DNA of 64,000 bases from Nocardia cyriacigeorgica (lineage in GTDB: Bacteria; Actinomycetota; Actinomycetes; Mycobacteriales; Mycobacteriaceae): NCBI RefSeq assembly GCF_029868385.1, contig NZ_JARWNX010000062.1, forward strand, positions 62,001-126,000, in the 5' to 3' direction. The notes below the pieces were generated by a model. It saw only the letters and a list, made by a program, of their open reading frames with translations, was not told the DNA's origin and ran no database searches. Every line of letters begins with the position of its first letter. The first letter of the stretch is position 1. A program made the translations under genes and the position numbers. Positions 3,155 to 19,980 of this stretch are shown piece by piece.

Positions 3155-4009
3155 ATGCATATGGATCCGGTGACGGCGGCCGGTGTAACGATCCCCGAGC
3201 AGCACTTCCACTGGGACGACACCGATTCGCGGCGCTATCGGCACGCGGTCGGGCAGAGCGACCGACAGGCCGGAATGCTGCCGACGTTCGCCCTCACCGC
3301 TCCCGGCGCGTTCGGGGTGGCGTCTCCGGATTTCTATCATCCGGAGCCGCCCGAGGTCCGGTTCCCCGGTATCCGGCTGAACCTGGCCACCCTGCTACAG
3401 CAGAGCCAGCAACTGCGGGTGCACGCCCCGATACCGGAGTCCGGGACCGCACGGTGTCGCGGCGAAGTGCTCCGGATCGAGAACCGTGGCACCGCAGCCG
3501 TTCTCGTGCAGCGCACCGAGCTGGTCGCCGAGGACGGACGCACGCTCGTTTCCGGGATCTCCCGTATCCACGCACGCGGTGCGGGTAGGCCCGCCGCTCC
3601 GGCCGTCCGCCGTACGGCGCCGGAAGCAGATGAATCGGCCCCCGCCATCGAGATCGTCGTGCGCACCGACGAGCAGCAGGCGCAGTGGTATCAGGCGTGC
3701 GGGAAGAACACCTCGTTGCGCAACAATGTGCACACCGACGCCGCTTTCGCGTCGGCCGCCGGGCTGGCCGGGCCGATCATGCAGGGTGTGTGCACCTACG
3801 CCATGGTGTGTGCGGCATTGGTCGATGCGGTTCTGGACGCGGAGGTGTCCCGAGTACGCGAATACACGGCGCGATTCACCGGAATGGTGTTCCCCGGTGA
3901 ATCGCTGCACACGCGAATCTGGCCGGATGCGTTCGGGTACCGGTTCCGCACCTCGGTCCCCGAACGCGCCGACGCACCGGTCCTGCTGGGTGAGCTGCGG
4001 ACCGACTGA
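3155..4009 (+). CDS. MaoC / hydratase-2-like double hot-dog protein with altered active site
   Basis: A 284-aa protein whose second half resembles R-specific enoyl-CoA hydratases: NNVHTDAAFASAAGLAGPIMQG followed by CTYAMVCAALVD, parallel to the family's D-x-N-P-L-H-x-D and GPI-x-H-G-x-x-TY. The catalytic Asp five residues before the His is Leu here, and the usual HG is QG, so normal hydratase chemistry is doubtful. It could be an evolved dehydratase, thioesterase-like or binding protein acting on the PKS product. The start is uncertain: ATG 3155 and ATG 3161 are both possible and neither has a good ribosome-binding site. It is the leftmost gene of the island, convergent with the hydrolase at 4020. 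Confidence 0.65.
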   Translation: MHMDPVTAAGVTIPEQHFHWDDTDSRRYRHAVGQSDRQAGMLPTFALTAPGAFGVASPDFYHPEPPEVRFPGIRLNLATLLQQSQQLRVHAPIPESGTARCRGEVLRIENRGTAAVLVQRTELVAEDGRTLVSGISRIHARGAGRPAAPAVRRTAPEADESAPAIEIVVRTDEQQAQWYQACGKNTSLRNNVHTDAAFASAAGLAGPIMQGVCTYAMVCAALVDAVLDAEVSRVREYTARFTGMVFPGESLHTRIWPDAFGYRFRTSVPERADAPVLLGELRTD

Positions 4010-4019
4010 GCGCGTCCGG

Positions 4020-4865
4020 TCAGCCGGACACCAGGAACGGGGCGATCTCGGCCGCCACCGCCTCGGCATTCTCGATGTGCAGATGATGTCCACCGGGGAG
4101 CGTGACCTGCCGTAGTTTCGGCACCGTACCGATCCGCGCCGGATAGTAGGGCTCCACCAGGGAGGAGCGTTCCGCGGTCACCAACAGGGTGGGCGCGGTG
4201 ATCGCGCCGAGGAATGCCAGCACCTGTTCTTCGGTCAGGGTCGGCGTGATGCCACGATTGAGCCGTACGTCATGACGCCAGGAGTACCCCGCGGCGACCT
4301 CCACCAGGTCTCGGTCGACCAGCAGTTGCGCGGTGTCGAGCAGAATATCGGCCAGCTGGACCCGCGCTTTCACCGCCTGCATCCGGCTGCGGTACACCGG
4401 GTGTCGGTCGCCACGCAGATAGGTGTCGAGGTAGCGGGCCGTTCCCGAGACGGTCCGCTCCGGATCCGCGGACAGCGGTCCGATGGCATCGATGAGTACC
4501 AGCCGATCGACCTTGTCCGGATGGAGACCGGCGATCAGCGATGCGACCGCCCCGCCGAGCGAATGACCGATCAGCCGGAAGCGATCCCAGCCCTGGGTAT
4601 GGGCCAATTCGAGTACACAGGCCGCGAATTCGAGATAGCCGCAGGTGACCGAGGGCACCGGATCGGAGCGACCGTGGCCGGGCAGATCGACCGCGATCAG
4701 ATCGGCGCCGACCAGATACTCGGCCAGCGGATCGAATCCGGCACAGTTGTCGAGGATGCCGTGCAGACAGAGCACCGGCAGCCCGCTACCGCCGGTGCCG
4801 CGCCTGCCGCGCAGGGTGATACCCGCCTTCGGCAGCGCGAACTCCACCTCTTCCCACACGCTCAT
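4020..4865 (-). CDS. Alpha/beta hydrolase, putative product-release thioesterase of the PKS
   Basis: A 281-aa serine hydrolase: LCLHGILDN oxyanion loop, DLPGHGRSD, nucleophile elbow GHSLGG, and catalytic His in GGHHLHIE. Its ATG overlaps the PKS stop (TGATG), so the two are almost certainly co-translated; a GTG at 4868 is an alternative start. The PKS has no C-terminal thioesterase domain, so a discrete hydrolase here is the natural candidate for off-loading the chain. Hydrolysis versus transfer to another acceptor cannot be told. An ester- or lactone-tailoring role is the alternative. Confidence 0.75.
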   Translation of the reverse strand: MSVWEEVEFALPKAGITLRGRRGTGGSGLPVLCLHGILDNCAGFDPLAEYLVGADLIAVDLPGHGRSDPVPSVTCGYLEFAACVLELAHTQGWDRFRLIGHSLGGAVASLIAGLHPDKVDRLVLIDAIGPLSADPERTVSGTARYLDTYLRGDRHPVYRSRMQAVKARVQLADILLDTAQLLVDRDLVEVAAGYSWRHDVRLNRGITPTLTEEQVLAFLGAITAPTLLVTAERSSLVEPYYPARIGTVPKLRQVTLPGGHHLHIENAEAVAAEIAPFLVSG

Positions 4866-7800
4866 CACGCGTCCAACCGGGCCAGCACCAGTTCCGACAA
4901 TTCCAGGACGCTCGGGCCCTTCATCAGTTCCATGATGGTGACCTTGGTCGCCAGCTCACGTTCCAGCCAGGCACTGATCTCCACCGCCAACAATGAATCC
5001 AGGTAGTCCATCAGTGGCATGTTCTCGTCCAGGGTCTCGAGAGGGATGCCGAGTACCGCGGCCAGCCGGGTCTTCAGCGCACCCGTCAGCACCGCCCCAC
5101 GATCTCCGGCAGCCGCGGTCTCCAGCTGTTCGCGCAGTGAACTGCCCCTGGCCGTGGTCACCGTACCCACGGCGCGGGCGGCCAGCAGCTCATAGCGGGG
5201 ATGGCTGTCGAGCGTCATACCGTGGTGGCCGAGGAACTGCGACCAATCCATCGGCAGCACACCGACCTGCGGGGCCGGGGTGGACCACAGCGTCGTCAGC
5301 GCGCGATACGCCGCGGCGGCACCGAATCCGCGCATACCGGTCGCGGCGACGAACCGGCCGATGTCGTCGTGCCGGGCGACGTACCCGGCGTCGGCGATGG
5401 CACCCCAGTTGACCGCGAGCGCCACCTGGCCGCGCGCTCGCCGGGCGTGGGCCAACTGGTCGAGGAACGCATTGGCGACGGCATAGTTGCCCTGCCCGCG
5501 ATTACCCACCATGGAGGTCGCCGACGAGAACAATACGAACGCCTCGAGCGGCAGGTCGGTGGTCAGTTCGTCCAGGTGCCAGGCACCGAACGCCTTACCG
5601 GCCAGCACCTTCCCCACTCGGTCGGCATCCATGTCGGCCAGCAGAGCGTCGTCGAGCACCATGGCGCAGTGCAGGATGCCGCGCAACGGCGGAAGGTCGG
5701 TGGCGATGCCTTCGAGGACGGCGGCCACCTCGGCCCGTACGGAGATGTCCGCCGTTTCGACACGGACCCGAACGCCGCGGGCACGCAGCGATTCGACCCG
5801 CGCCGCCTGGTCGTCGTCGGTGATTCCCTTGCGGCCCAGCAGAACCAGGCTGCCGACCCCGGATTCGGCGAGCGCCTCGGCCATCGCCGAGCCGAAACCG
5901 CCCAGTCCGCCGGTGATCAGCCAGGTGCCGTCGAACGACGGCACCCGGGGCGAACGGGCCACGGCGACGTCGCGCTCGTTCATCGCGAGCACGACCTTGC
6001 CGATATGGCGAGCCGCGGCCAGATGCCGGAACGCCGCTTCGGTCTGGTCGGGATGGAACACGCGGTAGGGCAGCGGCCGCAGTTCTCCGGTCGCGAACCG
6101 GTCCATCACTGCCCGCAACACCGTGTTCGTCGCTTCGGGACGGTCCACCAGCAGCTGCCGCAGATCGAAGGCGACGTAGGTGAGGTTGCGCAGGAACGGG
6201 CGCAATCCGAGCCTGCGGTCCTGTAACAGATCGCGTTTGCCCAGTTCGACGAACCGCCCGTACGGGGCGAGACAGGCCAGGCTGCGTTCCGCCGAATCTC
6301 CGGCGATCGAATTGAGCACCACATCCACACCGGCGCCGTCGGTGACCGCTCGGATCGAATCGGCGAAATCCAGGGACCGCGAATCGAACACATGTCGCAC
6401 GCCGAGCGTGCGCAGCAGTTCCCGTTTGGCCGCCGAGCCCGCTGTAGCGAACACCTCGGCCCCCGCGGCGCGGGCGATCTGCACGGCCGCCAGGCCGGTG
6501 CCGCCGGTCGCGGCGTGCACCAGGACGCGTTCGCCCGCGCGGACCCGCGCCAGTTCGTGCAGGGCATACCAGGCGGTGAGGAACACGATCGGCACCGAAC
6601 CGGCCACTTCGAAACCGAGCGTCTCCGGTTTCGGCACGACATGGGCGGCAGCGACGGTGAGATGGCTGCCGAGCGTGCCCTGTGCGGGGCTCACCGCGAC
6701 CACGGCGTCGCCGACGGTGAAGTCGTGCACCCCGCTGCCGACTCGGGTGATCACACCGGCGCATTCGGCGCCGAAGCGGGGTTCGGTGGCCGATTCCATC
6801 GGTGGTATCTGCCCCAGCGCGATCATCACGTCCAGGAAGTTGAGACCCGATGCGACGACCTCGATCTCCACTTCCCCTGCGGCCGGTGCGGTCCGGGCCC
6901 GCTCGTGGTATCGCAGCGCGTCCAGCGAACCGGGTGCCTCGATGGTGAGTGCGACACCGCTGTCCGGCGGGAGCGCGGCGGCCTGGACCGTCTCGGGGCG
7001 CGGCGTCCACGAGGCGAGTCGCCGCACGAAACGTTCCCCGGACCGGATCACGACCTCACGTTCCCGGCCGTCGGCGTGCACCTCGGCCCACAGTGCGTCG
7101 AGATCACCGGGGGTCGGCTCGGCATCCAGGTCGACCACGGTGAAACGCAGTTGAGGCAGCTCCACTCCGATGACGGCTGCCAGACCCCAGGCCGCCGCAC
7201 CGGTGAGATCGCCGCGGTCAGAGCGGAAGACGTGCGCGCCGCGGGTCACTTCGACCACCCGTGGCCACTGTTCGGCATCGTCGCGGCAGACTTGGCGCAG
7301 CAGATCGATGATGCGAAGCGTCGTTCCGGTGAGTGCCTCGTCGAGCAGCCCGGCGGCGCTGCCACGCAGATCGAGTATCGCGGTGGGCACCACCTCGCCG
7401 AGGTCGGACAGATCACGCTCGACGACAGCCCGTCCACCGCGTTCCCGCAACCGCTCGGCCAAGGCGTCCGCCAGTGGCTCATCGCCGCCACCGGTCAGCA
7501 GCAACCAGGTCCCCGGCTCCGGTTCGGGCGCGGGCGGTGGCGGCAGCACCTGTTCGGTGCCGGTACGGGCGACGATCAGCGCTTGCGAGCCGGGCCCCTG
7601 ATGCGCCGGGTCGCCCAGCGCGACGACCTCCGCGAAGTCCAGCGACCGCAGCAGGTCCTCCCAACCGTGCGCGGACAGCAGTGGAGTCTGTGGGCGCAGC
7701 CGATGATCACGGAACGACCACCAGCCTTCGGTGAGCCCGAAGGTCAGATCCAGCCAGGGATTGTCCGGCGCCGCCTCCAGCAGCATCAGCACACCCTCGG

Positions 7801-10800
7801 GTGCGAGCAACTCCTGAAGGTAGAGCAGCGTCTTCTTGGCATCGGCGGTCGCATGCACGACATCGGAGGCGACGACCAGATCGAACGACCCGGCGGTGAT
7901 CCCCTGACCCGCCGGATCGTGTTCGAGGTCCAGCACCCGGTAGTCGACGATATCGTGGCCGCGGAACCGTTCCCTGGCCGTGGCGAGAAACGCGGGCGAC
8001 ACATCGGTGAAGACGTATTCGCATCGGTCGGCGGGCAGTACCGGCAGCAGGCTCGCGGTGAGTCCGCCGGTTCCGCCGCCCACCTCGAGGATGCGCAAGG
8101 TGCGCCCCGGCGCGGCGGAATCGGCGAGTCGGCGCACCAGCTCCCGGCCGAGCGCATTGTAGAAGCGGGCGATCGGTGAGTTCTGGTAGATGGCCTCCAG
8201 ATCGACCAGTGATCCTTCGGCGAACAGCAGCTCGATCGGGTCGGCCGCGCCGGTCAGCACCTCGTGCAGCCGATCACCGGTGCGGCGCAGCAGCAGCAGT
8301 TCCCAGGCGCAGGCCGGGTGGGCGTCGAACATCCGCGCCCACAGATCGTCCACGTCGTCGGCGCTGTGGGCGAGCCTGCGGTACTGCTCGCCCTCTTCGC
8401 GCAGGCTGCCGTCCTCGACCAGCAATCGCAGCAGGCCCTGGAGCGCCCGGCGATATTTCGGCAGCAGGGTCGGGATCTCACCCACTGTGAACTCCGCGTC
8501 GAGGCCGAACGCGTCGAGGGTCCGGGAGACATAGGCCGCGCACAACCGCGCGATATCGCGCTGGTATCCGGCGGCGTAGGTGGTGCGATCCAGCCGGTCC
8601 GACCACTGGCGCGCCGTCGGTGCCAGCTCCGCGGCCAGTGCGGTGAGATCGGTGGACAGGGCGCTGCGCTGCGGCGCAACCACCGGTCCGCATGGTTGCC
8701 ATTCGAGCGTGTAGAAGTCACCGTCCAGCCCGCCCGCCGCGCTCTCGCTCACCGCCCGCACGGCTTTGCCGGACAGCGCGGTGTACTCGGCGAGTACCGT
8801 GCCCTGCTCATCGAGCAGATAGATGTCGACCAGCAGCGTGTCGTCGTTCTTGCGCGGACGGGTGTAGCACCAGACCGGAAGATCCACCGGCCGGTGCATC
8901 CGCACCCGCTCGATTCCGGTCGGCAGATAGCTGATCGGCAGCAGCTGATCGGGATGGCGCTCGGTCGGATGCAGGATGGCGCTCTGGAAGCAGGCGTCGA
9001 GCACGGCCGGATGCAGCAGGTAGCCGTCGAGGCGGCGACGCAGCACCCTCGGCACCTGAATCCGGGCCAGTGCTTCGCCCCGACCGATATCGATCCGGTC
9101 GATACCGCAGAACGCCGGACCGTAGGCGTAGCCGCGGTGGGCGAAACGGCCGTATACGTCGATCGCCTTCGCCGGGTTGGTGCACCGCTCCCGGATCGCG
9201 GCCAGGTCGAACACCAGCGCCTCGGTCGCGGCGCCGGTGTTCGACACGTGGAATCGGCCGCGTGCGTTGCGCAGCCAGGTATCGCCGCGCACCGACCGCT
9301 GATGGAACTCGAATGTGCCGTCCTCCGGATCGAGTTCGAGGCGGCTCAGCTGTGGTTCGTCGCCGAGTACGCAGGCACGTTCGAATTCGACGAACTCGAG
9401 CCCGCACGGCTGCCCGGTCCATTCGCTTGCCGCGGCCAGCGCGGCTTCGATATAGGCGGCCCCCGGCACGATCACCGAGCCGAAGACATCGTGCTCCCTG
9501 ACCCACGACAATCGATGATCGTCCCAGCTGATCTCCCATGCGGGGCGGGCACCGGCGACCGGTTTGAGCATCGGATGACGCTGTCCCCCGGCCCGATAGC
9601 GTTGTGAGATCTCGCTCTCGTTCCAGAACGACTGTCGCTGCCAGGGATTGCGCGCAACATCGAGTACCGGGGCGCCCGCCTGATGATGTCGCGACCAATC
9701 GATCGCGGCGCCATCGGTGTAGAGGCGGGCGAAGGAGTCGAGGAAGGTCGCCCAGTCGTCCTTCTTCCGCATCAGCGAGGGCACGATGGTGGCCTCGGCG
9801 GAGATCTCGGTCACCGAATTGGTCAGGACCGGGTGCGGGCTGAGTTCCACGAAAGTGTCGTAGCCGTCGGCGAGCATCGCCCGGATCGCCGATTCGAACA
9901 GGACCGGCTGCCGGAAATTGCGCCACCAGTACTCGGTGCCGAGTTCGGTGCCCTCGATACGGGCACCGGTCAGCGTCGAATACAGGGGTATGGTCGTCGC
10001 CGCATGCTCGATATCGCCGAGCGCCGCGAGCAATTCGTCGCGCAGTGGGTCCATGTCCTGGCTGTGGCAGGCGCAGTTCACCCGCAGCAGGCGCGCGAAG
10101 ATTCCCTGTTCGTCCAGATCGGCCGCCAGCGCCTCCAGCACCGGGCGCCGCCCCGACAGGGTGCTCGCCCGAGGACTGTTCAGCGCGGAGACCCACACCT
10201 GCCCCGGATACCGCGCGGCCAGCTCATCGGCCTGCGCTTGCGGGACCGCGACGAACATCATGGCGCCGGTCGGATCGGCTCCGTCCTGGATCCGGGCGCG
10301 GTGACAGATCACCTTCAATGCCTCGGACAGGCTCAGCGCACCCGAAACGTGTGCCGCGGCGATCTCGCCCATACTGTGCCCGACCACGGCATCCGGTTCG
10401 ATCCCTCGGGAACGCCACAATGCGGCCAGTGCGATCTGCACGGCGAACATGGTCGGTTGCAGGCAGCGCGTCTGGCCCACGGGCGAGTCCGCCTCGTCCG
10501 CGGTCAGTGCTTCGTAGATGGACCAGTCGATGTATTGCCGCGCCGTCCGGTCACATTCGAGAATCGTGTCGCGGTACACCGGCGAGGTCTCCAGCAGCGT
10601 GCGCCCCATGGCGTACCACTGCGGCCCCTGTCCGTTGAAGACGAAGGCGACCTTCCCGGACCGGCCACGCGGGACCTGCCCGGACACGACCGTTCCGGCG
10701 CGCAGTTTCGCTGCCGCGTCGGCGGCGTCCACCGCGATCACCGTGCGCCGGAACTCGTGATGGCCACGGCGCAGCGCCGTGGCCGCGCCATACGATGCCA

Positions 10801-12244
10801 GCGCCACACCGGAGGTCTCCAGTACTCGCGCGTGCCGCGTGCTCAATTCGTCCAGTGCCGCCGCACTGCGCGCGCTGAACGTCAGCACCGTGGGGACACC
10901 GGTACTCTCGGGCACCCGGCTCGGCTCCGTCGATTCCTGGATCGCTTCGGCCAGTACGACATTGGCGTTCGTGCCACCGAAGCCGAAAGAGTTGACGCTC
11001 GCGTAGGCGATATCGTGCCCGTCGGGCCACGGCTGCCCGGTGGCGGCCACCGCGATCGGCAACTGCCCGAAATCGATATCGGGATTTCCCTCCCGGTAGT
11101 GCAGGCTCGGCGGCACCCGCCGGTGCTGTACACACAGCGCCGCCTTGATCAGCCCGGCGATACCAGCGGCGGCCTCCAGATGGCCGATATTCGTCTTGAT
11201 CGAACCGAGCAGCGCGGTGCGCCCCTGCGCCCGCCCAGTACGCAGTACTCGGCCGAGGGCATTGGCTTCGATCGGATCGCCCACCGGCGTACCGGTGCCG
11301 TGTGCCTCGACATAGCCGATATCGGCCGGATCCACTCCGGCGACGGCCAGCGCCGCCCGGAAGTTCGCTTCCTGAGACTCGCCGCTGGGCACTGTGATGC
11401 CTTGGGTTCGTCCGTCCTGGTTGACCGCGCTGCCGCGGATCACGGCATAGACCCGGTCACCGTCGCGGCGGGCCCGGTCGAGCGGTTTGAGCAGCACCAG
11501 CCCCACGCCCTCGCCACGGACGTAGCCGTTGGCCGCGGCATCGAACGCACGGGACCGCCCATCCGGCGAGAGCATGGCGGCCTGGCTCAACGCGATACCG
11601 AACTGCGGGGTCAACATGAGGTTCACCCCGCCCGCCATCGCCAGTTCGCTCTCCCCGCGACGCAGGCTCTCCACCGCGAGGTGCACCGCGACCAACGACG
11701 ACGAACAGGCGGTATCGATGGTCATACTCGGACCGCGCAGGTCGAAGGTATAGGACAGCCGGTTGGACACGATGCTCATGAAGGTGCCCGTCGCCGAATG
11801 CGCACCGAGCCCCTCGACTTCGCTCGGTGCCGATTGCAATGCGCCGTAGTCCTGACTGCACGCCCCGATGAACACACCGGTCCGGGTTCCCGCACAGGCA
11901 CCGGGCACCACGCCCGCGTCCTCGAAGGTCTCCCAGGCCACTTCCAGGAGTTGGCGCTGCTGCGGATCCATCTGTTCGGCGATGCGGCCGGAGATACCGA
12001 AGAAGGCCGCGTCGAAGGTGTCCACCTCGTCGAGATAGCCGCCCCTGCGCGCGCTGATCCGGCCCGGCTGCTGTGGTTTCGGCGAATAGAACCGGTCGAC
12101 GTCCCAGCGGTCCTCCGGGGTGGGCGTGATCGCGTCGACACCCTGTTCGAGCAGTTCCCACAGTTCCCCGGGGCCGGTGACACCACCTGGTAGCCGGCAG
12201 CCGATACCGATGATGGCGATGGTCTGGTCATCGGCGTTGTTCAT
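4865..12244 (-). CDS. Highly reducing type I polyketide synthase with C-methyltransferase
   Basis: A 2459-aa single-module synthase. Domains in order (rough residues): KS 8-430 with active Cys ~178 in DTACSSS, His in EAHGTGT and NIGHLEAAAG; AT ~545-860 with GHSMGE (~623) and an unusual specificity motif NCACHS; DH ~890-1180 with HDVFGSVIVP (~916) and DACFQ (~1083); C-methyltransferase ~1330-1600 with LEVGGGTGG (~1383); ER ~1790-2100 with HAATGGTGLAA (~1911); KR ~2115-2310 with TGGLGGFG (~2111) and FSSATS/GNYAVANAF; ACP with Ser in YLDSLLAV (~2415). All domains look catalytically complete. The order KS-AT-DH-cMT-ER-KR-ACP is that of fungal highly reducing iterative PKSs and suggests a branched, reduced chain. 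The ATG at 12244 overlaps the upstream stop (ATGA), with GGAG 6 nt before it; the frame stays open upstream but that part is antisense-like. Confidence 0.93.
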   Translation of the reverse strand: MNNADDQTIAIIGIGCRLPGGVTGPGELWELLEQGVDAITPTPEDRWDVDRFYSPKPQQPGRISARRGGYLDEVDTFDAAFFGISGRIAEQMDPQQRQLLEVAWETFEDAGVVPGACAGTRTGVFIGACSQDYGALQSAPSEVEGLGAHSATGTFMSIVSNRLSYTFDLRGPSMTIDTACSSSLVAVHLAVESLRRGESELAMAGGVNLMLTPQFGIALSQAAMLSPDGRSRAFDAAANGYVRGEGVGLVLLKPLDRARRDGDRVYAVIRGSAVNQDGRTQGITVPSGESQEANFRAALAVAGVDPADIGYVEAHGTGTPVGDPIEANALGRVLRTGRAQGRTALLGSIKTNIGHLEAAAGIAGLIKAALCVQHRRVPPSLHYREGNPDIDFGQLPIAVAATGQPWPDGHDIAYASVNSFGFGGTNANVVLAEAIQESTEPSRVPESTGVPTVLTFSARSAAALDELSTRHARVLETSGVALASYGAATALRRGHHEFRRTVIAVDAADAAAKLRAGTVVSGQVPRGRSGKVAFVFNGQGPQWYAMGRTLLETSPVYRDTILECDRTARQYIDWSIYEALTADEADSPVGQTRCLQPTMFAVQIALAALWRSRGIEPDAVVGHSMGEIAAAHVSGALSLSEALKVICHRARIQDGADPTGAMMFVAVPQAQADELAARYPGQVWVSALNSPRASTLSGRRPVLEALAADLDEQGIFARLLRVNCACHSQDMDPLRDELLAALGDIEHAATTIPLYSTLTGARIEGTELGTEYWWRNFRQPVLFESAIRAMLADGYDTFVELSPHPVLTNSVTEISAEATIVPSLMRKKDDWATFLDSFARLYTDGAAIDWSRHHQAGAPVLDVARNPWQRQSFWNESEISQRYRAGGQRHPMLKPVAGARPAWEISWDDHRLSWVREHDVFGSVIVPGAAYIEAALAAASEWTGQPCGLEFVEFERACVLGDEPQLSRLELDPEDGTFEFHQRSVRGDTWLRNARGRFHVSNTGAATEALVFDLAAIRERCTNPAKAIDVYGRFAHRGYAYGPAFCGIDRIDIGRGEALARIQVPRVLRRRLDGYLLHPAVLDACFQSAILHPTERHPDQLLPISYLPTGIERVRMHRPVDLPVWCYTRPRKNDDTLLVDIYLLDEQGTVLAEYTALSGKAVRAVSESAAGGLDGDFYTLEWQPCGPVVAPQRSALSTDLTALAAELAPTARQWSDRLDRTTYAAGYQRDIARLCAAYVSRTLDAFGLDAEFTVGEIPTLLPKYRRALQGLLRLLVEDGSLREEGEQYRRLAHSADDVDDLWARMFDAHPACAWELLLLRRTGDRLHEVLTGAADPIELLFAEGSLVDLEAIYQNSPIARFYNALGRELVRRLADSAAPGRTLRILEVGGGTGGLTASLLPVLPADRCEYVFTDVSPAFLATARERFRGHDIVDYRVLDLEHDPAGQGITAGSFDLVVASDVVHATADAKKTLLYLQELLAPEGVLMLLEAAPDNPWLDLTFGLTEGWWSFRDHRLRPQTPLLSAHGWEDLLRSLDFAEVVALGDPAHQGPGSQALIVARTGTEQVLPPPPAPEPEPGTWLLLTGGGDEPLADALAERLRERGGRAVVERDLSDLGEVVPTAILDLRGSAAGLLDEALTGTTLRIIDLLRQVCRDDAEQWPRVVEVTRGAHVFRSDRGDLTGAAAWGLAAVIGVELPQLRFTVVDLDAEPTPGDLDALWAEVHADGREREVVIRSGERFVRRLASWTPRPETVQAAALPPDSGVALTIEAPGSLDALRYHERARTAPAAGEVEIEVVASGLNFLDVMIALGQIPPMESATEPRFGAECAGVITRVGSGVHDFTVGDAVVAVSPAQGTLGSHLTVAAAHVVPKPETLGFEVAGSVPIVFLTAWYALHELARVRAGERVLVHAATGGTGLAAVQIARAAGAEVFATAGSAAKRELLRTLGVRHVFDSRSLDFADSIRAVTDGAGVDVVLNSIAGDSAERSLACLAPYGRFVELGKRDLLQDRRLGLRPFLRNLTYVAFDLRQLLVDRPEATNTVLRAVMDRFATGELRPLPYRVFHPDQTEAAFRHLAAARHIGKVVLAMNERDVAVARSPRVPSFDGTWLITGGLGGFGSAMAEALAESGVGSLVLLGRKGITDDDQAARVESLRARGVRVRVETADISVRAEVAAVLEGIATDLPPLRGILHCAMVLDDALLADMDADRVGKVLAGKAFGAWHLDELTTDLPLEAFVLFSSATSMVGNRGQGNYAVANAFLDQLAHARRARGQVALAVNWGAIADAGYVARHDDIGRFVAATGMRGFGAAAAYRALTTLWSTPAPQVGVLPMDWSQFLGHHGMTLDSHPRYELLAARAVGTVTTARGSSLREQLETAAAGDRGAVLTGALKTRLAAVLGIPLETLDENMPLMDYLDSLLAVEISAWLERELATKVTIMELMKGPSVLELSELVLARLDA

Positions 12245-13227
12245 TGCTGCTCCAGATATTTGAAGGCGGTAAGCACCTGTGCGGTTGTGAAGACGTGCTG
12301 GGTGGCTCGGAACTTGCGGTAGCCATCGGTTTCCGGATAGGGGTATCGCCCGCCGAACCATGAGCCGTCCACGCGGCGCCGGTCCAGCAACCAATCGACC
12401 GCGCGGCGCACCGGTAGATCGTCGACACTCATACCGGCCTGCGCGAGCGTCGCCAGCGCGAGCGCCGTCTGGAGTTCGGGCGCCGAGGGCTCACCACGGA
12501 AACCCTCGACCTGGGAGAACCAGCACCCGTCCGGGCGTTGCTGTTTCAGTACGAAATCGCGTGCCTTCGCCACGGTGGCGTAATCGCCGAATTGCACCAG
12601 GGCGGCGACGGCCGGACGCATCAGATAATAATGGGTGCAGTAGTAGTACCAATTGATGCCGAAATGCCCCTCGCTGCCCTGCTTCCCGGCGAGAAAATCC
12701 AGGGCCTCGTCCAGATACAGCGGTTCCACGTCTGCTTCGTCCAGTGCGCACAGGGCAAATCCGGTCACCGATGATTCCCATTGAAAAGCCTTGGGAATAT
12801 GGCTGTGCACCTCGGCCCATGGTCCGTCCGGAGATTGTCGGCTCCGTAGAAATTCCACCTTGTCGCCGACGGTGTCGCCCTGACCGAGCAGGGCCAGCGC
12901 CGAGATGTACTCGCTACTGGTTTCGGTGCAGTACTCGGCGGGCCCGATCTCGAGGGCGCCCCAGCTGAGCATCCCGGTCGGCTTCTCCCGTCCGGCGAGG
13001 AAGTCGAGGATTCCGCGCGTCAGCTGCCCCGCATGGTCGGGTAATTCCCGCTGCCACAGCGCAATCGCCTTGAGGGCGTTGACCGAATCCCATTCCAGGA
13101 ATACCACGCTCGACGGGTCCTCCGCGATGGCCCCATCGGATTGCTGACAGGCCAGGAAGTACCCGAACGCGTCGGCGACGACGTCGGTGAGCGCCTGCGA
13201 CTTTCTGTCGAACAGTTCGGCGAGCAT
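12241..13227 (-). CDS. Single-barrel prenyltransferase / squalene-cyclase-fold protein
   Basis: A 328-aa protein built of about five QW-type repeats: QQSDGAIAE, RQSPDGPWAE, QGSEGHFGINW, QRPDGCWFSQ and RRVDGSWFGG. This pattern marks the alpha/alpha-barrel of squalene-hopene cyclases and protein prenyltransferase beta subunits. It is about half the length of a squalene-hopene cyclase, so one barrel only, and no DXDD acid motif is visible; the aligned positions read EWDSV and WESSV. It is first in the operon cyclase-like, PKS, hydrolase, with a 4-bp overlap into the PKS. It may cyclise, bind or chaperone the polyketide or an isoprenoid part; function is unknown. The ATG 13227 start has only a weak ribosome-binding site. 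Confidence 0.7.
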   Translation of the reverse strand: MLAELFDRKSQALTDVVADAFGYFLACQQSDGAIAEDPSSVVFLEWDSVNALKAIALWQRELPDHAGQLTRGILDFLAGREKPTGMLSWGALEIGPAEYCTETSSEYISALALLGQGDTVGDKVEFLRSRQSPDGPWAEVHSHIPKAFQWESSVTGFALCALDEADVEPLYLDEALDFLAGKQGSEGHFGINWYYYCTHYYLMRPAVAALVQFGDYATVAKARDFVLKQQRPDGCWFSQVEGFRGEPSAPELQTALALATLAQAGMSVDDLPVRRAVDWLLDRRRVDGSWFGGRYPYPETDGYRKFRATQHVFTTAQVLTAFKYLEQQ

Positions 13228-13566
13228 GTCGACTATCGCGGATCGCCACCCGAGGGAGTGAGGAAATAGAAAGCACTGTTATCGTTCATATTCCACTCCG
13301 CATACGCTCTCCGAGCCGGTCGACACCGAATCGCGCCGACACCGGCAAGTTAACACAGCGCAACCCGACGGGACGCTCCCATAAATGGGAATATGGTCAC
13401 CTTGCAGCATTGCCCTGAATGCGATATTCAGTTCGCCGACACATACTTCCGGTCAGCATCCGCTGAGCGCAGCCGAACAATTCGAACCAACTCATGCGAC
13501 ACATCCGGTTCCCGCGGTACCTCCCCGCGGCCGGACAGTGCCGTTTTCGGTGGATGGGAAGACATC
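13228..13566. promoter_or_regulatory. Divergent promoter region of the PKS island with two palindromes
   Basis: These 339 bp separate the two operons of the island and are more AT-rich than their surroundings. TCCCATAAATGGGA at 13377-13390 has 6-bp arms around AA, and TGAATGCGATATTCA at 13416-13430 has 5-bp arms. Either could be an operator. No regulator gene lies inside the island, so control would come from outside. No small gene is evident. Confidence 0.45.
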
Positions 13567-15204
13567 ATGCAGCGTGCCGATCTCCTACGGCAGCCCTGGG
13601 TCGAGGTGACGACGCTCGGCGATCTTCTGGAGCGGCGGGCGCACGAACACCCGGATCGGATCGCGCTGGCCTTCCCCGACCAAGAGATGTCCTACGCCCA
13701 GCTCGCCGCGCGGGCCGAAGTCCTCGCCAGCGGATTGCTGGCAGCGGGCACCTCCGCCGGGGATGCCGTCGGCATCCTGCTGCCCAACTGCCCGGACTCC
13801 ATCGCCGCATTGTTCGCGATCACCCGGATCGGCGCACTGCCGGTGCCGGTCAACAACCGGTTCAAAGAACATGAACTGACGCAGGTCATCACCCACTCGC
13901 GTATGCGGTTACTCTTCGTGCACGACTCCACGCCACTACCGGAGATCGTGCGGCAACAGGCACCGCTGCTGGAACACGTGGTACAGCTCGGAGATGAGCC
14001 GGTCGCGCCGCGCACCGTGTCCGAGCGCGAATTCCTCGACGACGGCTCCCGGCTCGGCTCCGGCCACGTGCGCGAGCGTGCCCGATACGTCCGGGTGCGC
14101 GATACCGCCGTAGTCATGTACACCTCCGGCACGTCGGCCAGCCCGAAGGGCGCCATGATCAGCCATGAGGCGCTGATCCGGTTCGCGGCAGGGGCCGGTC
14201 ACGGCCGTCTCGAACTCACCGGAGACGACCGGGTCTGGACGCCGCTGCCGCTGTTCCATATCGGCGCGGTGGCCTTCGCGATCGCGAGTATCCACGCCGG
14301 CTGCACCTACGCCCATGTGGGCCTGTTCCGGCCCGACACCGCGCTGCGCCAGCTCGAAGCGCAGCGCTGCACGGTCGCACTGCCCGGCTTCGAAACGATC
14401 TGGCTGCCCGTGCTCGACCATCCCGACTTCGCGACACGCGACCTGTCCGCGCTGCGCCTGGTGATGACCGTCGGTGTACCAGAACGCGTCCGCGATATGG
14501 CGAGCCGTATTCCGCACGCGGTCCAGGTGTCCTGTTTCGGCATGACCGAAGCCAGCTCCTTCCTGTCGTTGAGCGAACAGACCGACACCCTCGAGCAGCG
14601 CACCACCACCGGTGGCCTGCCACTGCCCGGAATGGAATGCCGCGTCGTCGATCCGGAGACCGGTCAGGATCTGCCGCCGGGAACCGAGGGCGAATTGCTG
14701 TTCCGCGGGACGAACTGCTTCGACGGCTATCTGCACGATCCCGAACTCACCGCACGGTGCTTCGACGACCAGGGCTGGTTCCGGACCGGTGACATAGCGG
14801 TCATGGACGCGGACGGCCGGGTCACCTTCATCAGCCGCCGCAAGGACATGCTCAAGGTGGGCGGCGAGAACGTCTCCGCGGTCGAGGTGGAGGATTTCCT
14901 GCTCCGGCATCCGGCGGTGCACATCGTGCAGGTGGTCGCGGCCCCCGATTCCTACTACGTCGAAGTACCGGCCGCATTCATCGAACTCGCGCCGGGCACC
15001 ACGGCGACCGAACAGGAGATCATCGACTACTGCCTCGGCAGTATCGCCACCTATCGCGCACCGCGCTACGTCCGGTTCGTCGACGAATGGCCGATGTCGG
15101 GCACCAAGATCAAGAAATACGTGCTGCGCGAACGTATCCGCACCGAACTCGAGGAGCGCGGGATCACCGTCGCGCCGAAACTACGTGCACCGCAGGGGGC
15201 GTGA
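13567..15204 (+). CDS. Acyl- or aryl-CoA ligase (AMP-binding)
   Basis: A 545-aa adenylate-forming enzyme. YTSGTSASPKG is the phosphate loop, GMTEASSF the A5-type motif, GWFRTGDIA and RRKDMLKVGGENV the hinge and A8 region, and SGTKIKKYVLRE holds the C-terminal catalytic Lys. It most likely activates a carboxylic acid as a CoA thioester, either to prime the PKS or to feed a side chain. No fatty-acyl-AMP-ligase insertion was noticed. The ATG 13567 has GGGAAG upstream; an in-frame GTG-started extension to 13393 lies in the promoter region. Its stop overlaps the P450 start (TGATG). Confidence 0.88.
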   Translation: MQRADLLRQPWVEVTTLGDLLERRAHEHPDRIALAFPDQEMSYAQLAARAEVLASGLLAAGTSAGDAVGILLPNCPDSIAALFAITRIGALPVPVNNRFKEHELTQVITHSRMRLLFVHDSTPLPEIVRQQAPLLEHVVQLGDEPVAPRTVSEREFLDDGSRLGSGHVRERARYVRVRDTAVVMYTSGTSASPKGAMISHEALIRFAAGAGHGRLELTGDDRVWTPLPLFHIGAVAFAIASIHAGCTYAHVGLFRPDTALRQLEAQRCTVALPGFETIWLPVLDHPDFATRDLSALRLVMTVGVPERVRDMASRIPHAVQVSCFGMTEASSFLSLSEQTDTLEQRTTTGGLPLPGMECRVVDPETGQDLPPGTEGELLFRGTNCFDGYLHDPELTARCFDDQGWFRTGDIAVMDADGRVTFISRRKDMLKVGGENVSAVEVEDFLLRHPAVHIVQVVAAPDSYYVEVPAAFIELAPGTTATEQEIIDYCLGSIATYRAPRYVRFVDEWPMSGTKIKKYVLRERIRTELEERGITVAPKLRAPQGA

Positions 15205-16481
15205 TGCGCGGTGAGCTGCGCACCCTGACCCGCCTCTACCGCAACTCCCTGCGCCTGCGCACCTCCACAGCGCTCGGTGACCCTGTCGCCTCGGTGCTCG
15301 ACCTGCCACGCGGAGCCGACGGGCATCCGAGCTACGAACGGATTCGCGCCCGTGGCGATCTGGTGCGCGGCCGCAGCGGTCTGTGCATGTCCGCCTCGTA
15401 CTCGGTGTGCAATGAGGTGCTGCGCGACAACAGATTCCGGGTGGCGCCGACCTCGGCGGTGCGCCTGCGACTACGCCCGCTACCGGATCAGCGCACCGAT
15501 TTCCTGGTACATCCACTCGACGATTCGCTCGCCTCGGCGAATCCACCGGAGCACACCCGGCTGCGCAAACTCGTCGCGCCGCTGTTCGGCGCTGCGCAGA
15601 TGCGGGCACGTCGCGAGTTCGTCGAAGATCTCGTCGAGCGCCAGCTCGACCGGCTGGCGGGCGGGGACCCGGTCGACCTGATCGATGGTTTCGCGCTGCG
15701 CATTCCGAGTCTGGTGATCGCCGACCTGCTCGGACTGCCCGCCGAACATCACGACGACTTCGCGCGCTGGGGTATCGAATTCGGCGCCACCGTGGACGGC
15801 GCCCGTGGCCTGCGCGAGCGCCAGCGCACCCGAGTCCTGCTCGCCGAACTCACCGACTATTTCGCCGACGCCGTGGCTGCCCGCCGAGGCGAACCCGGTC
15901 CCGATATGATCAGCGCCCTCACCGGTGCCATCGATACGGGCGATATGACCGAGGCCGGGGTCGTATCGACCTGCCAGGCGCTGCTCATCGGCGGTTTCGT
16001 CACCACGGCCAACATCATCGGCAACGCCGTGGTCGCGCTCTCGGCGAACCCGGACCAGCGCGCGATGTTCGCCGCCGACCTCGATCTGGCGGGCCGGGTG
16101 GTGGAGGAGACACTGCGCTGGGAGGCACCTGCCCAATACAGTGTTCGGGTGGCGGGCGAGAGCGTCGAACTCGCCGGGCAGCAGCTGTCCAAGGGCACCC
16201 CGGTGGTTCTGCTACTCGCCGCGGCAAACCGCGATCCCGACGTGTTCACCGAACCCGGCCGGTTCGATATCACCCGCGCGAACGCACGCGACCACCTGTC
16301 CTTCGCAGCGGGTGTGCACTACTGCCTGGGCGCGGGCCTGGCCCGGATGGAAGGCGAGATCGCCCTGCGCGCTCTCTATCGCCGATATCCGCACGTGCAG
16401 GCGGTGGGCGCGCCGTCGTACTGCCCGTCCAGGGTCATTCGTGGCCCGCAACGCCTACTCGTCCGCACCCACGCCGCCTGA
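15204..16481 (+). CDS. Cytochrome P450 with atypical I-helix
   Basis: A 425-aa bacterial-type P450. SFAAGVHYCLGAGLAR carries the heme-ligand Cys (FxxGxHxCxG), and EETLRWEAP contains the K-helix ExxR. The I-helix reads LLIGGFVTTAN, so the usual acidic residue before Thr (AGxET/DT) is Val. This may alter proton delivery and chemistry. It is coupled to the CoA ligase by a 1-bp overlap with AGGGGG just upstream. Likely role: oxidation of the polyketide. Redox partners are not encoded nearby. Confidence 0.9.
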   Translation: MRGELRTLTRLYRNSLRLRTSTALGDPVASVLDLPRGADGHPSYERIRARGDLVRGRSGLCMSASYSVCNEVLRDNRFRVAPTSAVRLRLRPLPDQRTDFLVHPLDDSLASANPPEHTRLRKLVAPLFGAAQMRARREFVEDLVERQLDRLAGGDPVDLIDGFALRIPSLVIADLLGLPAEHHDDFARWGIEFGATVDGARGLRERQRTRVLLAELTDYFADAVAARRGEPGPDMISALTGAIDTGDMTEAGVVSTCQALLIGGFVTTANIIGNAVVALSANPDQRAMFAADLDLAGRVVEETLRWEAPAQYSVRVAGESVELAGQQLSKGTPVVLLLAAANRDPDVFTEPGRFDITRANARDHLSFAAGVHYCLGAGLARMEGEIALRALYRRYPHVQAVGAPSYCPSRVIRGPQRLLVRTHAA

Positions 16482-16829: not shown

Positions 16830-17027
16830 GGCCTCTCCCATCTCTCCGACAGGGATATACATCCAGTATGACCGGTCGGCACCCGTGGAACCGGTGAACG
16901 ACGCGTCACCGATACGTGCGGCGGCGAAGCACCTGCCCAAGGGTGCCCGGCGTAACGACGAGAGTCACCGGAACGCTGTAGTCAGTGGGGGTCGCACCAT
17001 TCGCGTCGACATATAAGGGGTTCGCCC

Positions 17028-17138
17028 ATGGTTCATCCGACCGTCGTTCCGTCCAACCCGATCGAAGCCCTCCTGATGACCCTGTCCTGGCTGGTGTGCT
17101 CGATCTCGTCCGGCCAGGGCTGCGCGATCATCCAGTAG
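17028..17138 (+). CDS. 36-aa hypothetical peptide followed by a hairpin
   Basis: ATG 17028 is preceded by a strong AAGGGG 7 nt upstream and by an AT-rich ACATATAA. The peptide has a hydrophobic centre (LLMTLSWLVCSI) and a C-terminal part with Cys, Ser and Cys (CSISSGQGCAIIQ). A perfect 9-bp hairpin follows at 17152-17174, giving it the look of a small monocistronic unit. It could be a membrane peptide, a toxin-like peptide or a ribosomally made precursor; no modifying enzyme is adjacent. I do not recognise it. Confidence 0.5.
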   Translation: MVHPTVVPSNPIEALLMTLSWLVCSISSGQGCAIIQ

Positions 17139-17151
17139 ACACGCCGTGCAC

Positions 17152-17174
17152 GCCTCCGGCCCCGCGCCGGAGGC
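17152..17174 (+). terminator. Hairpin after the 36-aa peptide
   Basis: GCCTCCGGC pairs perfectly with GCCGGAGGC around a CCCGC loop, 13 nt after the peptide stop. No T-run follows, as is usual for actinobacterial terminators. Confidence 0.55.
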
Positions 17175-17221
17175 CTCGGCAGGTCCGAGTGTGCACGGCC
17201 CCGACTGGTAGTAATGGAACG

Positions 17222-17641
17222 GTGACTGCGGACAACGGCTCGGCCCCCGACCCCGGCAACGCTGCCATCGACCCCGAACTCCTCGAACTGGCCACCGCCG
17301 TCTTCGAGTTCGCCCGCGGCGGTGCGGCCGAACAGCTCGCCGCCTACCTCGACGCGGGAGTCCCGGTGAACCTCACCAACGATCGCGGTGACACCCTGCT
17401 CATGCTCGCCGCCTACCACGGCCATCGCGAGACGGTCGCGGTCCTGCTCGCTCGCGGCGCCGATCCGAACCGGGCCAACGACCACGGTCAGACACCGCTG
17501 GCCGGTGTGGTGTTCAAGGGCGAAACCGAGATCGTCGGCGATCTGCTGGCCGCGGGCGCCGACCCGGACGCGGGAGCCCCGTCCGCGCGTGCGGCCGCCA
17601 CCATGTTCGGCAAAACCGACCTGCTGAAGCTCTTCGGCTGA
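17222..17641 (+). CDS. Small ankyrin-repeat protein
   Basis: A 139-aa cytosolic protein with about three ankyrin units: DAGVPVNLTNDRGDTLLMLAAYHGHRE-type, ARGADPNRANDHGQTPLAGVVFKGETE, and AAGADPDAGAPS. Such proteins mediate protein contacts. The GTG start at 17222 is chosen because the sequence before it is the hairpin and low-complexity text; only a weak GGAA precedes it. The partner is unknown. It lies between the 36-aa peptide and the membrane kinase. Confidence 0.75.
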   Translation: MTADNGSAPDPGNAAIDPELLELATAVFEFARGGAAEQLAAYLDAGVPVNLTNDRGDTLLMLAAYHGHRETVAVLLARGADPNRANDHGQTPLAGVVFKGETEIVGDLLAAGADPDAGAPSARAAATMFGKTDLLKLFG

Positions 17642-17730: not shown

Positions 17731-19980
17731 ATGGCGCACTCCGCCCCGCCTGCCTCCGGGGTGACCGTCCAGCCCGACCGGTCGCCGGAGACATCGCGTG
17801 GCAACCAGGTGGCCGAGGCCATCGAACGCTTCACCGCGGCCTGGCAGAACGCCGACACTCCCCCGGAACTCCGCAGCTATCTGCCCGATGCGCCCGCCAT
17901 CCGGCGGGTATCGCTGATCGAGCTGATCAAGATCGATCTGGCGCATCGGTGGCAGCGCGGCACCGCACCGAAACGATTGGCCGAATACGTCGACGAACTG
18001 CCGGAGCTGCGCACCTGGCCGTTACCGCCGGATCTGATCTACGAGGAGTTCCATCTACGCCGCCGGGCGGGCGGTTCGGTCGACGTCGACGAATACACCG
18101 CCGCCTATCCCGAACAGGCCGAACAACTTTCGCAACTGCTCACCACCGAGGACTATCACAGCACCCTGCTCGGCGTACCCACCGAACCGGCGAATCTCGA
18201 TGAGCTGGAGGCCGGGCAGCGCATCGACGACTTCGATCTGATGGCCGGGCTCGGCCGCGGCGCGTTCGCCCGGGTCTTCCTCGCCCGCCAGCGTTCCATG
18301 CAGCGGCTGGTCGCGGTGAAGATCTCCCGCGACAAGGGCACCGAACCGCAGACCCTGGCCCAGCTCGACCACGACTACATCGTGCGCGTATTCGACCAGC
18401 GGGTGCTCGACGCGCCGCCGCTGCGGCTGCTGTATATGCAGTACGTGCCCGGCGGGACGCTGCTCACGGTGCTGGAACGGGTGCGCAACACACCGCCGCA
18501 GCAGCGCAGCGGACAGTTGCTGATCGACGTCATCGACGCCGTGCTCGCGGACAAGGGCGAGATCCAGCCCGCCGAATCACCGGTCCGCGCCGAACTCGCG
18601 GGGCTGTCCTGGCCGGAGACGGTGGCGTGGCTGGGCCGTCGACTGGCACAGGCCCTGGATTACGCGGGCGGCGTCGGTGTCCTGCACCGCGACGTCAAAC
18701 CGGCGAATGTGCTGCTCACCGCGGAGGGCATACCCAAGCTGGCCGATTTCAACATCAGTTTCAGCGGCAACGTCTCCGGCGCCAGTCCGGTGGCCTACTT
18801 CGGCGGATCGCTGGCCTATATGTCCCCCGAGCAATTGTCGGTGGTGCATCCCGAGCGTCCGGCCGCCGCCGCCGACCTCGATACCCGCAGCGACCTGTTC
18901 TCGCTGGCCGTCGTGCTGTGGGAGCTGCTCACCGGCCGCAAACCCTTCGATGACGACACCATCGACGGCGGCGACCGCACGGCATTGGATTCGATGCTGG
19001 ACCGGCGCGCCCACAGCCCGCAGGATCTGCCCTACGACGATCTGCCGCCCGACACCCCCGCCGCCCTGCGCCGTGCGCTGGTGCGCGCTCTCGAACCGGA
19101 TCCGGCCAAACGCTGGGAGCGCGGCGCCGATATGGCCCAGCAGCTCCAGGTCTGCCTCGACGCCCACGCCCGCGATCTGGTCGATCCACCGCCGGGCAGC
19201 GCGCGGCTGCGTGCGCGCAGCTGGATCCATCCGATCATGGCGTTGGCCATCGCCGTACCGAACGCGCTGGCGATCCTCTACAGCTACAACCACAATCGCA
19301 CCCTGATCATCAGCAAACTCGACGCCGATGCCCAGCGCACCTTCGACCGCATCGCCTGGACCAGCTACGGTGTCGGCTTCCTGATCGGCGCGGTGGTGAC
19401 CATCGCGCTGGTGATGCACCTGTGGCTGATCATGCACGGGCTGCGCCGTGGCCGCGACTACGATGCCAAGACCCTGGCCAGGGCACGATCGGACACCCTG
19501 CAACTCGCCAGTCGCAATGTGTTGACCTGCTTCGTGCTCTGGGCGATCACCGGCGTCGCGGTGCCGATGTCGGTGCAGCTGTCCGGCAGCCACATCAGCG
19601 CCGAATCCTCGGCGCATTTCTTCCTGACCCAGATCGTGTGCGGCGCGATCGCCATGGCCTATCCGTACTTCCTGGTCAGTTTCTACGCGGTGCGCTGCCT
19701 GTATCCGGCGTTCCTTCCGCTGGGCGGGCTCACCGCCGAGGACAGTGCGCAACTGCGTGCGCTGGACCGGCGCAGCACCTACTTCCTGACCATCGCCGCG
19801 GCGGTGCCGCTGCTCGGCGCCGCCGGGGTGACCTTCATCCCGCCCGCCGACATTCCGTCGGTGATCGTGCCGCTGCGGGTGCTGTGTTTCGGCGGTGCGC
19901 TGGCCTTCGTCGGCGTGTATTGGTTGTTCCGGATGCTCGAACGCGATCTCGCCGCGCTCGAACGCATAGTCACGCACTGA
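17731..19980 (+). CDS. Membrane Ser/Thr protein kinase with DFN motif
   Basis: A 749-aa protein. Residues 20-150 hold two copies of a helical module around RLAEYVDELPEL and DVDEYTAAYPEQAEQL, an N-terminal layout common in planctomycete kinases. The kinase domain (~165-480) has GLGRGAFARVF, the VAVK lysine and HRDVKPANVLL. The magnesium loop reads ADFN where DFG is standard. APE is present as SPEQL. About six hydrophobic spans follow (~500-740), starting IMALAIAVPNALAILY. Catalytic Lys and Asp are intact, so activity is plausible but the loop may be altered. The ATG at 17731 is the leaderless start. Confidence 0.82.
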   Translation: MAHSAPPASGVTVQPDRSPETSRGNQVAEAIERFTAAWQNADTPPELRSYLPDAPAIRRVSLIELIKIDLAHRWQRGTAPKRLAEYVDELPELRTWPLPPDLIYEEFHLRRRAGGSVDVDEYTAAYPEQAEQLSQLLTTEDYHSTLLGVPTEPANLDELEAGQRIDDFDLMAGLGRGAFARVFLARQRSMQRLVAVKISRDKGTEPQTLAQLDHDYIVRVFDQRVLDAPPLRLLYMQYVPGGTLLTVLERVRNTPPQQRSGQLLIDVIDAVLADKGEIQPAESPVRAELAGLSWPETVAWLGRRLAQALDYAGGVGVLHRDVKPANVLLTAEGIPKLADFNISFSGNVSGASPVAYFGGSLAYMSPEQLSVVHPERPAAAADLDTRSDLFSLAVVLWELLTGRKPFDDDTIDGGDRTALDSMLDRRAHSPQDLPYDDLPPDTPAALRRALVRALEPDPAKRWERGADMAQQLQVCLDAHARDLVDPPPGSARLRARSWIHPIMALAIAVPNALAILYSYNHNRTLIISKLDADAQRTFDRIAWTSYGVGFLIGAVVTIALVMHLWLIMHGLRRGRDYDAKTLARARSDTLQLASRNVLTCFVLWAITGVAVPMSVQLSGSHISAESSAHFFLTQIVCGAIAMAYPYFLVSFYAVRCLYPAFLPLGGLTAEDSAQLRALDRRSTYFLTIAAAVPLLGAAGVTFIPPADIPSVIVPLRVLCFGGALAFVGVYWLFRMLERDLAALERIVTH

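Follow-up and report, generated by a model that had tools for sequence, protein, structure and literature searches.

The window, a stretch of 64,000 nucleotides of Nocardia cyriacigeorgica DNA, carries a gene for a 328-residue protein of terpene-cyclase fold, P0001, whose open reading frame was confirmed as real. This gene is part of a conserved six-gene cassette that also encodes an acyl ligase, a cytochrome P450, a polyketide synthase (PKS), a hydrolase and a MaoC-like protein (Table 1). The TGA of the cyclase gene and the ATG of the PKS gene share the letters ATGA, and this 4-bp overlap was given in a preliminary description of the locus; the two genes overlap in all 12 loci examined (by 4 bp in 11, by 8 bp in one).

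Table 1. Genes of the cassette and codons discussed in the text (positions in the window)
Feature	Position	Strand	Basis or remark
Single-barrel terpene-cyclase-fold protein P0001, 328 aa	12241..13227	-	ORF call, Pfam, predicted fold
Single-module, fully reducing type I PKS, KS-AT-DH-cMT-ER-KR-ACP	4865..12244	-	Pfam, active-site motifs
Alpha/beta hydrolase, GHSLGG; start overlaps PKS stop (TGATG)	4020..4865	-	Pfam, motif
Acyl/AMP ligase, divergent	13567..15204	+	Listed ORF opens at 13393; start deduced from orthologue alignments
Cytochrome P450, heme motif FAAGVHYCLG intact	15204..16481	+	ORF from 15087; start inferred from overlap with ligase stop
MaoC/hydratase-2-like protein, convergent with hydrolase	3155..4009	+	ORF listed from 3038; start inferred
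Codons T101-E102-T103-S104-S105-E106, SHC DXDD column; E102 at 12922-12924	12910..12927	-	hhalign, MAFFT
Codons E45-W46-D47-S48-V49, start of inner helix 1 (helix 44-57 in model)	13081..13095	-	AlphaFold2
Codons W150-E151-S152-S153-V154, start of inner helix 3 (helix 152-164 in model); E151 invariant	12766..12780	-	AlphaFold2

Active-site motifs are present in the window for the P450, the ligase, the hydrolase and the KS, AT, DH, MT and KR domains of the PKS. The PKS holds its full set of domains in one protein, the arrangement of a highly reducing PKS, and its lone module suggests that it works iteratively. Pfam lists no thioesterase domain in it, and the hydrolase is the probable means of chain release. 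Counting the window, the ligase and the P450 occur in 11 of the 11 loci whose contig reaches them, the MaoC-like gene in 10 of 10 and the hydrolase in 8 of 10, in one case as a partial gene at a contig end. The hydrolase was not found at two loci of a sister genus (L035 and L071), though the rest of the cassette is there, so chain release at these loci must use something else. HAFH or YASH is expected as the extender motif of an AT domain; that of the PKS reads CACH, so the choice of extender is not predictable. Judged by eye against the Asp/His consensus of MaoC/hydratase-2 proteins, the MaoC-like protein keeps the His and lacks the usual catalytic Asp, and its NVHTD is kept in every orthologue matching the pattern. 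The flanking genes tested on the outer sides of the P450 and the MaoC-like gene are without clear counterpart at other loci. A Ser/Thr kinase-like ORF (17731-19980), near an ankyrin-repeat ORF (16985-17641), was unmatched in the 10 cassette loci compared, and PADLOC gave no hit.

Cyclase and PKS are inherited together. Orthologues of the cyclase were found in eight of 150 Nocardia genomes (66-100% identity; the remaining matches of the search were weak), and the PKS segment was found at 60% identity or more in seven of the same number, every other PKS match standing at 44% or less. All seven PKS genomes fall among the eight with the cyclase, and in the eighth (G106) 955 aa of PKS run to the contig end. 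Outside the genus, orthologues with 58-62% identity are present in genomes of three other genera (G354, G172 and G399), and there is one more in G1300, from the genus of G354; the cyclase is kept across four genera. Single-protein searches of wider groups (E 1e-12) showed the protein in 5 of 397 genomes of the order, 2 of 394 of the class and 1 of 396 of the phylum (window's genome included), and searches within the other genera showed it in 2 of 118 genomes in the genus of G354, 1 of 4 in that of G399 and 1 of 1 in that of G172 (centre genome included). A profile search of 150 genomes of the order added solely a group of two-barrel proteins without DXDD. The cyclase was not found in plasmids. 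P0001 is the only PF13243 protein of the window's genome, so no squalene-hopene cyclase (SHC) is detectable there by that model. A search for the same pairing in other genomes had been proposed at the outset; the pair was found in all 11 close relatives read. The tight coupling to a PKS, from which joint action of the two proteins had been argued, is supported, together with joint inheritance.

The best sequence matches of P0001 are SHCs. Pfam SQHop_cyclase_C recognizes it with an E of 1.4e-13 (51 bits against a cut-off of 26.1), Pfam Prenyltrans falls just under its cut-off (24.6 against 26.5) and TIGR01507 well under (37.6 against 431.1). In the AlphaFold2 model (pLDDT 81.6, pTM 0.87; shallow input alignment of 7 close sequences, two of the five models at about 80 pLDDT), a short N-terminal helix is followed by twelve alternating helices forming one complete (alpha/alpha)6 barrel, with low-confidence stretches at 193-198, 244-247 and 303-309. 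The top structural match is the single-barrel 8paj_A (VIA Z 30.4, 300 residues, 3.0 A, 21% identity), followed by 8pak (29.8), SsDMS (29.5), SHC (28.0), MstE (27.2) and 6ij1 (26.5); the oxidosqualene cyclase 1W6K reaches 23.8 and sugar epimerases with the same barrel 22-23. The single-barrel cyclase fold of the preliminary description is therefore supported by a predicted model nearest to single-barrel class II cyclases (8PAJ/8PAK, MstE). Complement C3d and farnesyltransferase, returned by Foldseek, share the barrel and rank lower. Identity as a prenyltransferase or peptidase, which had been named as the finding that would speak against the proposal, is not favoured: class II cyclases are the closest matches, and all 11 homologues read adjoin the same PKS. 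With 328 aa against 619-631 aa for SHC chains, P0001 is about half as long, as had been stated, and it has one barrel where an SHC has two barrels and about 620 aa or more. QW-like repeats are present as well, and a pattern search places them at 28, 80, 130, 182, 229 and 283, which makes six rather than the five of the earlier count, provided that the first two, which are divergent, are included; a further match at 68 was taken as spurious (the pattern used was loose). The predicted barrel with QW repeats is that of TC-beta proteins. The DXDD motif of these proteins was looked for and is absent, and for this reason P0001 is not filed as a class II terpene cyclase, which it resembles in fold and like which it may still work.

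The pattern D.DD was found neither in P0001 nor in the 11 other orthologues read, which agrees with the absence of DXDD first noted. When the 11-sequence family was compared with six Nocardia SHCs by hhalign, YPDTDDTAEIVIAL was paired with YC-TETSSEYISAL. The SHC motif thereby aligns to T101-E102-T103-S104-S105-E106, and hhalign and four MAFFT modes agree in placing E102 at the column of the middle catalytic Asp. This Glu is invariant in 11 of 11 family sequences and is also found in the 12th orthologue. The preliminary description had instead taken EWDSV and WESSV as the aligned positions, a register that both methods reject. The first was likened, by eye only, to a 'VWDT' stretch of SHC and not to DXDD, SHC W312/D313 being left unaligned by MAFFT, and the second was placed near SHC PPSADVT by hhalign and not by MAFFT. 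The two methods concur at E102 and differ elsewhere, and the register at helix 1 and helix 3 is less sure. Invariant acids occupy only 15 of the 328 positions of the family, so an arbitrary column would carry one in about 5% of cases. D47, E45 and E151 are as invariant as E102, and on this pattern E45, D47 or E151 could instead be the acid or contribute. An analogy suggests a point against E102 as the acid: by their titles, structures of the Asp-to-Glu variant D303E of SsDMS, another class II cyclase, contain bound substrate, so Glu is maybe poor at that place in SsDMS.

The cyclase gene is under purifying selection, with dN/dS of 0.08-0.17 in eight pairs (rough values, dS being above 1 in three). 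Overall 120 of 328 positions are invariant. Near the inner-helix N-ends the count is 49 of 90, elsewhere in the inner helices 14 of 39, and in the outer helices 16 of 80. The most conserved part of the protein is thus the inner-helix N-ends, as in an active site, and the invariant residues of catalytic type include E45, D47, E102, H141, H143 and E151.

It is proposed, tentatively and with a probability of about 0.4, that P0001 is an enzyme with the single-barrel fold of the class II, protonation type of terpene cyclase and now serves a polyketide pathway, where it would cyclise or reshape the PKS chain with Glu102 as the acid. In class II enzymes the central Asp of DxDD protonates an alkene or epoxide (PMC9814783). 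Beyond the placement of Glu102 in the acid column, we infer the course of events as follows. The PKS would iteratively build a methyl-branched, partly unsaturated acyl chain, which the P450 would oxidise, possibly to an epoxide. The barrel would bind this chain while it is ACP-bound, after activation by the ligase or after release by the hydrolase. Glu102, perhaps assisted by neighbours such as T103, E106, D47 or E151, would then protonate an alkene, epoxide or carbonyl and start ring closure or isomerisation of the chain. Such an acid-started reaction is the simplest account because E102 falls, by alignment, in the place of the acid and the cassette holds a reducing PKS with a C-methyltransferase together with a P450. 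An unlikely elaboration would make the pathway a polyketide counterpart of sterol-type cyclisation, in which a methyl-branched polyene from the reducing PKS with its C-methyltransferase would be epoxidised by the P450 and the barrel, with Glu for the DXDD acid, would open the epoxide and close the rings. Scaffolds resembling terpenes would thus be made from carbon of acetate and methionine.

The main alternative, possible though not probable, is a non-cationic cyclase or isomerase using the same cavity: the barrel would bind and shape the chain and speed a pericyclic, Michael or dehydrative closure, the acids serving only as hydrogen-bonding groups. In its favour, DXDD is lost in every orthologue while the rest of the active-site zone is kept, and the PKS, being a reducing one whose DH and KR motifs are intact, could yield dienes or enones; however, a Glu exactly at the general-acid column would be superfluous in a purely steric catalyst. 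Whether P0001 is a non-catalytic chaperone or uses another acid had been left undecided in the preliminary description, and the acid is now the better of the two options, since the column of the catalytic Asp of SHC holds a Glu that does not vary. A role beside the PKS without catalysis, as a chaperone, a lipid carrier or a gauge of chain length, would fit the overlapping genes and the want of a canonical acid motif, but it is quite unlikely, because the invariant residues, many of them of catalytic type, crowd at the N-ends of inner helices rather than in the outer ones, and because dN/dS is low. Less likely again is that P0001 works as MstE does, as a common monodomain cyclase of meroterpenoid type, on an isoprenoid to which the polyketide is joined afterwards; MstE and the 8PAJ/8PAK cyclases are indeed among the nearest folds, but no prenyl synthase or UbiA-type family was found among the 21 window ORFs scanned, the outer flanking genes tested lack clear counterparts at the other loci and DXDD is missing. 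A decayed cyclase relic hitch-hiking in the operon would explain the loss of DXDD and is highly improbable for a gene under such selection, with so many invariant positions, in four genera.

To our knowledge, few single-barrel class II cyclases have been characterised so far, and among the matches all those whose substrate is named act on isoprenoids. No description of a pairing between a PKS and a protein of SHC fold was found in the literature searched, which lay largely outside subscription journals. The constant overlapping pairing with one PKS suggests that a terpene-type cyclase was recruited to shape a polyketide. If the proposal of acid-started cyclisation is true, the coupled pair would extend the carbocation-cyclase fold to polyketides and would show that nature uses Glu as general acid in the DXDD position. 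The cassette, of about 13 kb, could be expressed whole to find the product.

Several known systems can be set beside this pair. The two-barrel SHC-like actinobacterial proteins (L009, L041 and L042) also lack DXDD, their motif reading TLES or TLET; those of L009 and L041, of 562 and 572 aa, are about 30% identical to P0001 and have their acid at another column, and no match to this PKS lies within the 19.9-kb stretches round them. They form a second DXDD-less group, perhaps tied to isoprenoids. The loci concerned are L009/L073, L041/L074 and L042, and at L073 P450-like and AMP-ligase matches are nearby, with UbiA-like and FAD-monooxygenase-like ORFs recognized by eye. Unlike the present locus, nine loci in eight genomes whose PKSs are more distant (34-40% identical), drawn from 40 non-orthologous PKS matches in Nocardia genomes, have no cyclase of the P0001 fold beside the PKS; in one of these genomes, G132 (L057), a QW protein some 24 kb away from that PKS was taken as unrelated. 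Iterative highly reducing PKSs have the same domain order as the partner PKS. SHC (2SQC) shares the fold of the catalytic barrel and the QW repeats with P0001, which differs in its half length, single barrel and lack of DXDD. Oxidosqualene cyclases (1W6K) have the fold in common too, and their DCTAE motif likewise consists of a single acid, then small residues, then Glu; P0001 has Glu for Asp and a single barrel, and no link to a sterol pathway was seen. The monodomain class II cyclases, namely MstE (merosterolic acid synthase, 6SBB), 8PAJ/8PAK and 6IJ1, rank among the best structural matches and have a single (alpha/alpha)6 barrel and similar length. One account describes MstE as the first of them (PMC9401909). 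P0001 is about 20% identical to these enzymes, has Glu at the acid column in place of DXDD, and is partnered by a PKS where they have a prenylated aromatic substrate.
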